Of a stretch of 37,785 bases of DNA, positions 15,416 to 29,192 are shown piece by piece (position 1 is the stretch's first letter; every line of letters starts with the position of its first letter). This DNA comes from Methylophaga sp. (GTDB lineage Bacteria; Pseudomonadota; Gammaproteobacteria; Nitrosococcales; Methylophagaceae), in assembly GCA_026988435.1 (NCBI GenBank), contig JALSLH010000070.1, positions 1 to 37,785 of the forward strand, written 5' to 3'. The notes beneath the pieces were generated by a model, which did not search any database, was not told the DNA's origin, and was given only the letters and a program-made list of their open reading frames with translations. A program made the translations under genes and the position numbers.

Positions 15416-16333
15416 ATGAGAATATCAACGTCTTGGGCGCAGCAGCTAAGTGTTAACGCCATGCTTAATCAACAAGCAAAAGTATCCGATACGCAAATGC
15501 AATTATCTACGGGCTTAAAGAATTTGACGCCTGCGGATGATCCTATTGCGGCTAAAAAAGTGTTGGATTTTCAACAATATATTGATAAGACAACACAGTA
15601 CCAAGAAAATGTAGATGTTGCTAAATCGCGTAATGGGCTTGAAGGCTCTGTATTAACAAATAGTCGAGATAGTTTGTTACGGGCACGAGACCTTGCAGTT
15701 CAAGCATTAAATGAAGGGGTACTGAAGCAAGAAGATAAAACGGCAATTGCTGAAGAAATTAAACAAATTCAATCTCATATGTTAGCTTTAGCAAACACTC
15801 AGGACGCTAACGGCGAATATATTTTTTCGGGCGCACTTTCTAAAACATCTACATTTGATTCTGCTTATACATTTACCGGAAGCCAAGTGCAAAGGGAACT
15901 TCAAATTGCTCCTGATAGGCGTATTGCTGATGGTGATTTGGGCTATACAGTCTTTGAAAATATACCAACAGCCTCAGCTGCCCCACCTGCAACAAGAAAT
16001 ATTTTTGCGACATTAGGCGCTTTTGTTGATGCATTAGAAGGAACTGTAACGCCTTATCATGGCACAATTAATGAGGCTTTAGCTGATCTTGATAGTACAT
16101 TAGAAAGGGTTGGAGAAGCAGAGGCAAGAGTGGGAGCTAGATTAAGAGCGCTAGATGATCAGGCTAATCAAAATGAAAGCTATCTTATTTCTATGCAGAC
16201 TACCTTGTCTGAAGTAAAAGATTTAGATTATGCCGAAGCTATTAGTCGATTTGAGATGGATAGTGCTATTTTGCAAGCTTCTCAGCAGTCATTTTCAAAA
16301 GTACAGCAATTATCATTATTTAATTATTTTTAA
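15416..16333 (+). CDS. flgL: Flagellar hook-filament junction protein FlgL (HAP3)
   Basis: FlgL joins the hook-associated protein FlgK to the flagellin filament outside the cell. The 305-residue protein starts MRISTSWAQQLSVNAMLNQQ and has the flagellin-like N-terminal coiled coil with QLSTGLKNLTPADDPIAAKK, a central segment, and the C-terminal helix LDYAEAISRFEMDSAILQAS ending SLFNYF, typical of FlgL. The start has CAGGAGATAAGC before ATG. flgK, its usual neighbour, is not here; instead a Uma2 gene precedes it and the sugar genes follow 92 bases downstream. Confidence 0.93.
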   Translation: MRISTSWAQQLSVNAMLNQQAKVSDTQMQLSTGLKNLTPADDPIAAKKVLDFQQYIDKTTQYQENVDVAKSRNGLEGSVLTNSRDSLLRARDLAVQALNEGVLKQEDKTAIAEEIKQIQSHMLALANTQDANGEYIFSGALSKTSTFDSAYTFTGSQVQRELQIAPDRRIADGDLGYTVFENIPTASAAPPATRNIFATLGAFVDALEGTVTPYHGTINEALADLDSTLERVGEAEARVGARLRALDDQANQNESYLISMQTTLSEVKDLDYAEAISRFEMDSAILQASQQSFSKVQQLSLFNYF

Positions 16334-16425
16334 AAAATTGTAGACATTCTCAGCTTATTAGAACTTTCGGGTTAAGGAAGTTTCTTTGGCTATTTGAAGT
16401 TGTTGCGTGAAAAAAGAGGGATAAA

Positions 16426-17421
16426 GTGTTTAACGAAAAAAGTATACTAATTACAGGTGGCACTGGATCATTTGGACGATTATTTGTCGAAACTATATTA
16501 AAACGCTACCAGCCTAAACGCTTAATTATTTATTCGCGTGATGAGCTAAAACAGTTTGAAATGCAACAAATCTTTAATCAGCCTTGCATGCGTTATTTTA
16601 TTGGTGATGTAAGAGATTTAAGTCGTTTGCAGCTAGCTATGAAAGGTGTGGATTATGTTATTCATGCGGCGGCATTAAAGCAAGTGCCGGCCGCTGAATA
16701 TAATCCGATGGAGTGTATAAAGACCAATGTGCATGGTGCTGATAATGTGATTCAAGCCTCAATTGCCAATAATGTAAAAAAAGTCATTGCACTATCTACT
16801 GATAAAGCAGCCAACCCGATTAATTTATACGGTGCGACAAAGCTGTGCTCAGATAAGTTATTTGTTGCTGCTAATAATATAACGGGAGACAATGAAACTA
16901 TATTTTCTGTTGTGCGTTATGGCAATGTAGTGGGTTCACGTGGCTCAGTCGTGCCCTTTTTTAAAAACTTAATTACACAAGGTGTAAAAGAGCTACCAGT
17001 AACAGATGAACATATGACGCGTTTTTGGATTACCTTGCCTGAAGGTATAGAGTTTGTCATTAAAAATTTCCAACGTATGCGTGGCGGCGAAATTTATATT
17101 CCCAAAATACCATCTATGCGTATTATGGATTTAGTGTGCTCTATAGCGCCTGATATGCCCATTAAAATAGTAGGTATACGTCCCGGTGAAAAATTACATG
17201 AAGTGATGTGTCCGAAAGATGATTCACACTTAACCTTTGAATTTTATGACCATTTTGTTATAGGGCCGAGTATTAGCTTTACTAATAAGGGTAATCATTT
17301 TCATGAAAATGCTTTGGGTGAAAAAGGCATGCCTGTAAAACAAGGGTTTGAATATGAGTCAGGTACCAACCCTCATTTTTTGACAGTTAAAGAGTTACAA
17401 AAATATGGAATAAAAGCATAA
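16426..17421 (+). CDS. pseB: UDP-N-acetylglucosamine 4,6-dehydratase (inverting) PseB
   Basis: PseB is the first step of pseudaminic acid synthesis: it dehydrates UDP-GlcNAc and inverts C5. The 331-residue SDR protein has the NAD motif GGTGSFG at 11-17, the catalytic STDKA with D126 and K127, and the Tyr-Lys pair Y135/K139 in YGATK, the positions known for PseB/FlaA1. The start is GTG, preceded by AGAGGGATAA. pseC begins two bases after its stop. The gene opens the sugar run, which continues on the same strand to 29192. Confidence 0.95.
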
Positions 17422-27210: not shown

Positions 27211-27212
27211 TT

Positions 27213-29192
27213 ATGACGCAAGGTTATTTGATCTTTCACCTTAATTTGGCATTTTCTTCGATCAAAACAGAAGCGCGGCTTGACGTGATCCGAAATTGTT
27301 ATTGGCCGTTGCTGGACTTGGTCGAGAGCACGGGTATCCCCATTGGTATTGAGTTGACCGGCTGGACTCTGCAACAGATTGCATTGTTGGATAAGTCTTG
27401 GGTGGAGCGCTTTCGTCAGTTGCTTGAAAATCGCCAGTGCGAACTCATTGGCAGTGGTTGGTCACAGGTTATTGGGCCGTTAGTACCCTATGAAGTGAAT
27501 TGTTGGAATCAGCAGTTAGGGATGGATGCTTACCTGCAGATTCTAGGGATCACACCATTAATTGCCTTAGTGAATGAAATGGCTTTCTCTACTGGCATGG
27601 TCGATGTTTATATGGATGCTGGTTATAAAGGTATTGTAATGGATCGAGATAATGTACGTTTAGCATTGAATTTGGATGGTACTCCTCTATCCTATACTCC
27701 AACTCATGCATTAGGGTGTGGAGATCAATCAATACCGGTATTATGGTCTGATTCGATTTTATTTCAGCGTTTACAGCGAGTTGTGCATGGCGATATTCCT
27801 ATCACTGAATACATAGCGTATGTGAAGCAGCGTGCTGAGCAGGACTCTGCTGTATTGCCTATCTATTGTAATGATGCAGAAATATTCGGTTACCGTCCGG
27901 GAAGATTTACGGCTGAATCTCGTTTGCACCCAGAAGGCGAGTGGACTCGATTTAAAAGGATTTGCACTCTTTTGCAAACAGACCTAAGTCTCAGTTGGCT
28001 TAGCCCTAGTGAAGCCTTGGCAATTCAGGAGCTGAATTCTCAACCAAATATAAAGCGTTTAACCTCTGCCAGCCAACCAATCCCCGTTAAAAAACAAGCA
28101 AAATACAATATTAACCGCTGGGCAGTAACAGGTCGTGATGATTTGTGGTTAAACACCGCTTGTCATCGGGTGTACCAGGCATTAGTCAGTGCGGGTGATG
28201 TGCATAGTGAAAACCAGCGAGAACTTTGTGAATTATGGGCAAGCGATTTGCGTACTCATATTACTGGTGACCGATGGAATGAGTTAGTTAAGCGTGTGGC
28301 TGAGGTAAATGGCCGATTAAATATTTCGAAAGTGATGGAGATAAGCGGAGAATATAGAGAGTCGAGCCGGTTTTTAGATGAAATGAACTTGCCGAGCGAT
28401 GTTCAAATAAGTTTGGATGAAGAAAAAATTCTATGGAGTATAAAAACGCCCAATGTTCATCTTATTTTGAATGCGCGCCGTGGACTGGCTGTGCAGTCAC
28501 TGGCTTTCAAGTCTCATGACTATGATGCGGTTATTGGTATTTTACCACAAGGTTACTTTAGTTCTATTGAGTTAGGTGCCGATTTTTATTCGGGGGGGGT
28601 TGTTATTGAGATGCCGGGTGAGCGAACTCGGATGACTGACCTTGAATGGGTGGAGCCTCAAATTCAGTGTAATGATCATGAAATATTGGTTACAGCTAGG
28701 GTTTCTTTGGGTTATGGCGTGATTATGACGAAGACAGTTAGCATTCATCTGAAATCTGAACGAGTCCAGTTTGGCTATGATTTCGGTCTGTGGAAGAGAC
28801 CATTAGGTGTTGTACGTGTTGGAGTTTTTACTTTGCTTTCTGAGTCACTTACCGGTCCTCTGTTAGTGCGCTGTGTAAATGGTGGAAAAAAGACTGAATT
28901 ATTTCCGCTTGATCGTATTGTCAATCACGGGAATGCAGCTTCGACTTTAGTCTCTAGTACGACCAGTTTTGGAGCAACGGATGGTTGTTTGATGATTGAG
29001 GATGTTAATGGTCGAAGTTTGCATATGGCTTGGGATCCAGCTGGATGTGCGGCAATGCCTATGCTACAGCATCAACAATTGCAAAAGCATTGTTTAACTC
29101 GACTTTCTTTTTCATTGTGTGAATTGGATGAAACGTCACGAACAGAAGGTAGGTTAATGCCATTTTTTGTTGTATTGAGCTCAGGGAATTAA
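27213..29192 (+). CDS. Glycoside hydrolase family 57-type protein
   Basis: The 659-residue protein has the conserved GH57 blocks: a first strand FHLNLAFSSI (residues 8-17), IGSGWSQVIGPLVP (79-92), ALVNEMAFSTGMVDVY with the nucleophile E122, and YCNDAEIFGYRP with acid/base D221. A helical region and a C-terminal beta-rich part (from about 400) follow, a layout like 4-alpha-glucanotransferases of this family. GH57 enzymes cleave or transfer alpha-linked sugars, and a few are mannosidases. It begins two bases after the pseG stop and ends the run. An eight-G tract at 28592-28599 lies in the frame. The substrate is unknown. Confidence 0.78.
   Translation: MTQGYLIFHLNLAFSSIKTEARLDVIRNCYWPLLDLVESTGIPIGIELTGWTLQQIALLDKSWVERFRQLLENRQCELIGSGWSQVIGPLVPYEVNCWNQQLGMDAYLQILGITPLIALVNEMAFSTGMVDVYMDAGYKGIVMDRDNVRLALNLDGTPLSYTPTHALGCGDQSIPVLWSDSILFQRLQRVVHGDIPITEYIAYVKQRAEQDSAVLPIYCNDAEIFGYRPGRFTAESRLHPEGEWTRFKRICTLLQTDLSLSWLSPSEALAIQELNSQPNIKRLTSASQPIPVKKQAKYNINRWAVTGRDDLWLNTACHRVYQALVSAGDVHSENQRELCELWASDLRTHITGDRWNELVKRVAEVNGRLNISKVMEISGEYRESSRFLDEMNLPSDVQISLDEEKILWSIKTPNVHLILNARRGLAVQSLAFKSHDYDAVIGILPQGYFSSIELGADFYSGGVVIEMPGERTRMTDLEWVEPQIQCNDHEILVTARVSLGYGVIMTKTVSIHLKSERVQFGYDFGLWKRPLGVVRVGVFTLLSESLTGPLLVRCVNGGKKTELFPLDRIVNHGNAASTLVSSTTSFGATDGCLMIEDVNGRSLHMAWDPAGCAAMPMLQHQQLQKHCLTRLSFSLCELDETSRTEGRLMPFFVVLSSGN

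Follow-up and report, generated by a model that had tools for sequence, protein, structure and literature searches.

The flagellin of Shewanella oneidensis MR-1 carries on serine a 274 Da mono-N-acetyl pseudaminic-like residue together with a nitrogen-free, O-methylated moiety of composition C9H16O7, C10H18O7 or C11H20O7 (236, 250 or 264 Da). Loss of this moiety leaves a basic 274 fragment, and the outer structure of the glycan was left open in 2013 (PMC3765264). The sfmABCDE genes of this strain encode a NeuB-like protein of 290 amino acids (aa), an IlvB-like thiamine pyrophosphate (TPP) enzyme of 581 aa, a reductase, a methyltransferase, and an ATP-grasp protein. Deletions of sfmA to sfmD leave flagellin at its unmodified size and abolish spreading in soft agar; deletion of sfmE (ATP-grasp) gives a marked flagellin mass shift, slightly below that of the other deletions, with filament and swimming kept (PMC3765264). 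A related gene run is described here from Methylophaga sp. (Gammaproteobacteria; Nitrosococcales; Methylophagaceae), assembly GCA_026988435.1, contig JALSLH010000070.1. The window is the whole analysed stretch of 37,785 nucleotides, positions 1 to 37,785. The run is read as an sfm-type flagellar nonulosonic acid (NulO) pathway, in which a methylated hexonic acid would be amide-linked by an ATP-grasp ligase in place of the acetylation by PseH in canonical pseudaminic acid (Pse) synthesis. This reading is tentative and stands at a little under even chances.

A preliminary description of the window had placed a closely packed, same-strand run of 12 genes between flgL (15416-16333) and fliC (29483-30319). 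This is confirmed: all 12 lie on the + strand, in the order given below, and the junctions within the run range from -80 to +105 bases. The features comprise the following, where cassette marks genes that appear to be exchanged as a unit and MT1 and MT2 are two of the methyltransferases:

16426-17421, + strand: pseB, UDP-GlcNAc 4,6-dehydratase (5-inverting); TIGR03589, 555 bits (cut-off 407.75)
17424-18581, + strand: pseC, 4-aminotransferase; TIGR03588, 568.5 bits (cut-off 423.5)
18578-19315, + strand: pseF, CMP-Pse synthetase; TIGR03584, 327.4 bits (cut-off 205.7)
19320-20243, + strand: MT1, S-adenosylmethionine (SAM) methyltransferase, backbone member; Methyltransf_23
20349-21038, + strand: TylF-type O-methyltransferase, cassette, start uncertain; PF05711
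21082-22479, + strand: uxaC, uronate isomerase, cassette; NF002794, 568.8 bits (cut-off 387)
22483-23331, + strand: short-chain dehydrogenase/reductase (SDR), proposed ketohexuronate reductase, cassette; nearest model below cut-off
23252-24145, + strand: MT2, SAM methyltransferase, cassette, start probably later; Methyltransf_23
24162-25373, + strand: ATP-grasp carboxylate-amine ligase, cassette, proposed replacement of PseH; LAL_C2, ATP-grasp_4
25373-26224, + strand: SAF-less NeuB-type nonulosonate synthase; PF03102 only
26215-27210, + strand: PseG-like UDP-sugar hydrolase; TIGR03590, 46.9 bits (cut-off 153.55)
27213-29192, + strand: GH57-like protein; PF03065, 42.6 bits (cut-off 21.2)
29361-29387, + strand: sigma-28-type promoter match before fliC; exact match to a hand-entered consensus
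29483-30319, + strand: flagellin fliC, probable acceptor; PF00669/PF00700
33246-35741, - strand: Maf (MptE-like), putative NulO transferase; PF01973 above cut-off
35837-36682, - strand: second flagellin, downstream of the run

The same 12 genes occur in the same order in two unrelated genomes (loci L034 and L035), which excludes a chance assembly of the run. Family models recovered, as had been proposed, uxaC, the SDR, the ATP-grasp and GH57-type genes, and three methyltransferases; one of the latter is of TylF type. The earlier assignment of Pse genes stands in part: pseB, pseC, and pseF exceed their NCBIfam equivalog cut-offs, whereas the genes named pseG and NeuB-like both fall below theirs, so that neither a PseG equivalog nor a SAF-bearing PseI was found in the window. 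The window NeuB (283 aa) scores 172 and 161.5 bits against NeuB/PseI cut-offs of 399.65 and 340.25, is the one NeuB-family match in the whole genome, and has no SAF domain by Pfam. A conserved C-terminal motif, WRADPxDGLRP, sits where SAF would come next. The C-terminus lies 16-27 residues from the start of this motif or a similar one in 29 of 30 aligned rows, the window counted; the exception, L059, is apparently frameshifted. The AlphaFold2 (AF2) model (pLDDT 91) has eight barrel strands followed by just short helices. PseH gave no match in a profile search of the window genome, which is rated 95.1% complete; the same search matched 13 of 14 control genomes, one of them above the cut-off. 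No PseH above the cut-off was found in 16 genomes with relative loci, against a control in which likewise just one of 14 genomes exceeded it, and 14 of the 16 have weaker acetyltransferase matches. From its family, a carboxylate-amine ligase would be a natural stand-in for capping the 4-amino group. The window thus holds a short SAF-less NeuB, an SDR, methyltransferases, and an ATP-grasp protein in one cluster, as in sfm, and lacks the TPP enzyme (SfmB); it is filed as an sfm-type variant because UxaC replaces that enzyme.

Relatives of the window NeuB were collected by a scan of genome contigs, which gave 32 loci with a NeuB 51-82% identical, labelled as Proteobacteria of several classes, Chlorobiaceae, SAR11, Acidimicrobiia, Nitrospinota, Neomarinimicrobiota, and others. 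Together with the window and eight further genomes they make a set of 41 loci, skewed to close relatives because the scan seeds on 8-residue peptides. G327 was removed, its stretch being identical to L050, and two of the 41 (L040 and L062) are truncated inside neuB. The ATP-grasp ligase, whose nearest solved chain in the PDB is the L-amino acid ligase 3vot, was found by profile search in 26 of the 41. GH57 is present in 23 of these 26 and in one of the 15 loci without ligase (Fisher 2.6e-7, relatedness ignored), the latter being L040, a 5 kb contig. Two of the ligase loci without GH57 are cut short, L055 stopping 0.7 kb past the ligase and L058 soon past its cassette. Of the neighbours that the preliminary description proposed to look for together (pseB/C/F with uxaC, ATP-grasp, and GH57), ATP-grasp and GH57 thus keep company, but uxaC occurs in just three of the 41 loci (window, L034, and L035, all with ligase) and is one among several exchangeable solutions. 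The carbon-skeleton enzyme of the 26 ligase loci is acetolactate synthase (ALS)-like in nine, DXS-like in four, a split transketolase in three, UxaC in three, KduI/IolB in two, Gfo/Idh in two, of the mannitol dehydrogenase family in one, and was not found in two, the family names being taken from single representatives. The DXS of L048 exceeds the cut-off for dxs equivalogs; for the L031 enzyme the nearest model is acetolactate synthase, whose cut-off it does not reach. An SDR is present in 22 of the 26, and most alternative cassettes consist of an SDR plus a uronate-isomerase-family or TPP enzyme. L045, L052, and L054 have a split transketolase and an SDR with no ligase detected, and L052 and L054 are truncated near there.

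Comparison of these loci points to an exchange of cassettes. L031 and L035 both bear the label Chlorobiaceae and match at 76-86% identity in pseC, pseF, MT1, neuB, pseG, and GH57, but their ligases are only 29% identical, and L031 has an ALS cassette where L035 has a UxaC cassette. Between L034, from Methylomicrobium sp. wino1, and L035 the ligase (81%) and SDR (80%) are closer than seven other compared genes (50-71%). The window cassette is 66-70% (TylF-type), 76% (SDR), and 63% (MT2) identical to those of L034 and L035, the UxaC-bearing block being intact in three lineages at 63-78% identity. In the ATP-grasp tree, which covers 17 of the 26 ligase loci, the three uxaC rows form one group (98/97), and both the NeuB (p 0.0017) and GH57 (p 8.3e-5) trees reject such a clade. 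Left out of the ligase tree were L041 and L057 (long branches), L042 (no cassette class), G303, G318, G642, and G691, and L058 and L061 (divergent ligases, 132 and 122 bits). The same tree places the UxaC, KduI/IolB, and mannitol dehydrogenase cassettes on one side and the TPP cassettes on the opposite side (100/99), a split that was named only after a quick tree and may join long branches (L036 with L032/L033). Label changes in the quick trees number eight for the ligase and nine for NeuB over seven groups, and eight for GH57 over six groups; these counts alone do not separate ligase from backbone, and only the uxaC clade test does. MT1 is 55-74% identical to the window copy in L031-L038 irrespective of cassette, and NeuB identity to the window copy is 72-82% in L031, L032, L033, L036, L037, and L038, all with other cassettes. 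Because of these identities and the uxaC tree tests, the TylF-type gene, uxaC, SDR, MT2, and ligase are taken as a unit on a constant backbone, and PseB, PseC, PseF, MT1, NeuB, PseG, and GH57 appear from their sequences to behave as that backbone. A further backbone variant is seen in L032, L033, L036, L038, L042, and L055, which have an aldo-keto reductase, a different cytidylyltransferase, and a class III aminotransferase at the place of the window's PseF.

Gene content, the lack of detectable PseH or UxuA/UxaA-type genes, the exchange of cassettes, and the co-occurrence of ATP-grasp with GH57 are direct observations; every reaction, the reaction order, the number of methyl groups, and the attachment to flagellin in the window organism we infer. 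PseB and PseC would give UDP-4-amino-4,6-dideoxy-L-AltNAc. UxaC would convert a hexuronate, possibly supplied by two genes of the UDP-sugar dehydrogenase family in the window genome, to a ketohexuronate, which the SDR would reduce to a hexonate (mannonate or altronate) for O-methylation by MT1, the TylF-type enzyme, and MT2. The ATP-grasp ligase would join this hexonate, through its carboxylate, to the amino group that is still free. From there PseG, the SAF-less NeuB, and PseF would lead to a CMP-Pse5Ac7N-hexonyl sugar, or ligation could come later, and Maf would transfer the sugar to flagellin serine or threonine. The predicted mass of the window glycan is 274.1165 + 178.0477 + n x 14.0157 (452.16 + 14.016n). 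The idea of a variant Pse-type pathway making a modified flagellin sugar, put forward in the preliminary description, is thus supported by gene content and by the likeness to S. oneidensis sfm.

A wider version of this reading, possible yet clearly more doubtful, is a modular system in which the ATP-grasp ligase N-acylates Pse with polyhydroxy acids built from hexuronates. In it the exchangeable cassette would determine the acid: an isomerase plus reductase would yield hexonates, a pyruvate-type TPP enzyme plus reductase deoxy-octonates, and a transketolase plus reductase octonates. S. oneidensis would then carry a tri-O-methyl-deoxy-octonyl amide as its 264 Da moiety, and the window would make a tri-O-methyl-hexonyl amide (494.21 Da total). 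A hexuronate plus C2H4O (pyruvate-derived acetyl, ALS/DXS) plus 2H (SDR) minus H2O (amide) plus one, two, or three CH2 equals the S. oneidensis moiety formulas. The computed totals are 510.206, 524.222, and 538.237, against 510.2093, 524.2299, and 538.2403 as reported (PMC3765264). Of 21 combinations (seven aldehyde acids, three additions) four fit, and with acetyl transfer the C6 uronate is alone among the seven precursors in doing so, which also speaks for the narrower reading.

Several points weigh against the acylation pathway. Three other routes also fit the S. oneidensis formulas. The sfmB-D mutants (TPP enzyme, reductase, methyltransferase) resemble the NeuB mutant, whereas genes that made only the acid should give the phenotype of the ligase mutant, so that the model needs an extra assumption, such as a ligase attaching an unfinished acid that blocks transfer; the milder sfmE mutant is as expected if the core sugar is still transferred without the acyl group. 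PseG and NeuB sequences do not follow the cassette, which would call for tolerance of different acyl groups or for late ligation. The model nearest to the window SDR is the SDR-type D-mannonate oxidoreductase, at 112.6 bits against a cut-off of 281. Two of the ligase loci (L042 and G303) show no carbon-skeleton enzyme, two have the Gfo/Idh type, and L036 has no GH57 in about 10 kb fetched. The GH57-like protein has no assigned reaction, and MR-1 was compared with the window through its published description (PMC3765264).

The role of UxaC bears on two of the rival readings. Residues 2-463 of its 465 align with the solved glucuronate isomerase 3iac, and it is the sole UxaC copy found in the window genome. 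UxaC acts on glucuronate and galacturonate alike, and KduI/IolB-family enzymes are likewise uronate isomerases. Of Ashwell hexuronate catabolism, in which UxuA or a UxaA dehydratase follows UxaC, the search of the window genome recovered UxaC alone: UxuA (PF03786) and the UxaA/GarD-type domain (PF04295) were not found there, each being matched in five of 14 control genomes. The UxaC product is therefore unlikely to enter the usual degradation, and by this gene content the enzyme is probably not catabolic. That uxaC and the SDR are passenger genes of uronate catabolism beside an ordinary Pse5Ac7Ac glycan would suit the standard catabolic family of UxaC and its score, but the missing UxuA and UxaA-type domain disfavour this, PseH was not found either, and the block is whole in its three lineages; it is the least probable of the readings. 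Scarcely more probable is that the short NeuB takes the UxaC/SDR product as its carbonyl acceptor and forms a ulosonic acid of a new kind instead of an acylated Pse. The lack of SAF and the low NeuB/PseI scores would allow it, whereas PseB, PseC, and PseF are standard and NeuB, with its high identity across other cassettes, does not follow the cassette, so that this candidate too is disfavoured.

A stronger rival, though still unlikely, is that the added enzymes yield another sugar, such as a methylated uronate or ketose, which is joined to Pse by a glycosidic bond, with the ligase adding, for example, an amino acid. Three methyltransferases and a protein of GH57-like fold could be at work on a disaccharide, the nearest solved relatives of the ligase join amino acids, and the severer sfmB-D mutants suggest that these genes may act beyond the ligase (PMC3765264). 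Against it, family scans of the run show PseF and the PseG-like protein but no other nucleotidyltransferase or glycosyltransferase family; uxaC, SDR, and ligase travel as one block, and the S. oneidensis moiety is nitrogen-free and leaves a basic fragment on its loss (PMC3765264). Improbable is that the set makes a glycan for some surface structure apart from, or in addition to, the flagellum. The Chlorobiaceae metagenome-assembled genomes (MAGs) L031, L035, and L038 have no recognised flagellar gene in their fetched flanks, so that their sugar may decorate a different surface structure, unless the bins are contaminated, and glycosyltransferases lie downstream in L031; fliC, flaG, fliD, and maf, however, follow the run in the window and in L034.

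The GH57-like protein belongs to its family by PF03065, and E122 and D221, which we take to be the GH57 catalytic pair, are invariant in 18 of 18 aligned sequences. In a Foldseek search with its AF2 model (pLDDT 88) the first match by E-value is 1k1x, a 4-alpha-glucanotransferase (TM 0.46), while GH38 mannosidases match at TM up to 0.67; the first ten PDB matches lie at TM 0.41-0.67 by model length and 9-13% identity. The protein thus shares fold and conserved acidic residues with GH57/GH38 hydrolases, and a clear alpha-glucan enzyme is unsupported, since GH38 mannosidases exceed 1k1x by TM. Its tie to the ligase suggests a role in the acid branch, which it probably feeds, for example by release of a uronate, although this last step is a guess. 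No link of uxaC or GH57 to nonulosonate loci was found in open-licence literature, among the matches listed.

The short NeuB family is scattered. The best identity in 58 other genomes near the window's is 37%, and among 63 genomes of its order the window NeuB alone passes E 1e-70. The family occurs in seven of 369 genomes of the class (own included) and in one of 147 of the family of G318, namely G318 itself; for the GH57-like gene the count is four among 398 genomes of the phylum, with that of the window included. The set with an ALS-like cassette also occurs in L041, a contig from a single SAR11 cell (Pelagibacterales SAG-MED48). L046, a MAG contig labelled Helicobacter pylori PMSS1, probably wrongly, has a short NeuB 62% identical, plus pseB, pseC, and pseF, and no ATP-grasp or GH57 within 11 kb. 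In L045, L050, L052, L054, L056, and L060, from Kordiimonas and further Alphaproteobacteria, the short NeuB has a neighbour of about 590 aa, and no Maf was found in the fetched stretches. The L050 copy, the sole one scanned, has TPR repeats, and the protein is possibly an FlmG-like transferase. L051 (Thermodesulfobacteriota) has, after PseG, a glycosyltransferase plus an asparagine-synthase-like protein in the place that the ligase cassette holds in other loci. Upstream of pseB, the 92-base gap has no sigma-28 promoter with three or fewer mismatches. A second exact sigma-28-type match lies at 36955-36981, past the second flagellin gene and directed right toward the contig end, with no listed open reading frame of at least 100 aa downstream.

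The proposed pathway would give the flagellin decoration left open in S. oneidensis (PMC3765264) a concrete structure with a predicted mass, and would account for the possible absence of PseH. It would also present a way of diversifying bacterial surface sugars, in which one acid-making cassette is exchanged for another while the backbone stays the same, and a possible biosynthetic role for UxaC, KduI/IolB, DXS-like, and ALS-like enzymes, which automatic annotation would assign to catabolic or central metabolism.

With the canonical PseB-C-H-G-I-F pathway the window shares PseB, PseC, PseF, a PseG-like gene, and a NeuB-family gene; it differs in that PseH was not found, NeuB is without SAF, and a cassette is added. 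The type B flagellin of Clostridioides difficile has a terminal sugar that bears an amide and requires the ATP-grasp gene CDR20291_0245, but that glycan is a HexNAc-rhamnose with a sulfonated peptidylamido group, and not a NulO (PMC5207246). The sfm system of MR-1 is the closest studied relative, having a short NeuB-like protein, reductase, methyltransferase, and ATP-grasp in one cluster like the window. The available text of PMC3765264 reports no clear PseH, PseG, PseI, or PseF, proposes no sugar-acid acyl group, and does not name GH57, whereas in the window PseF is recognisable and a PseG-like gene is present. A Maf gene accompanies both, upstream of the operon in MR-1 and downstream of the run in the window. 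L044 has the gene kinds of sfm (NeuB 294 aa, ALS-like 580, SDR 267, ATP-grasp 408, and methyltransferase 402), and L048 has the same kinds with a DXS-like enzyme, plus a 566 aa gene that joins a cytidylyltransferase N-terminus to a PseG-like C-terminus (residues 248-545, 30% identity). MR-1 itself has the IlvB-like TPP enzyme at the place where the window has UxaC (PMC3765264).

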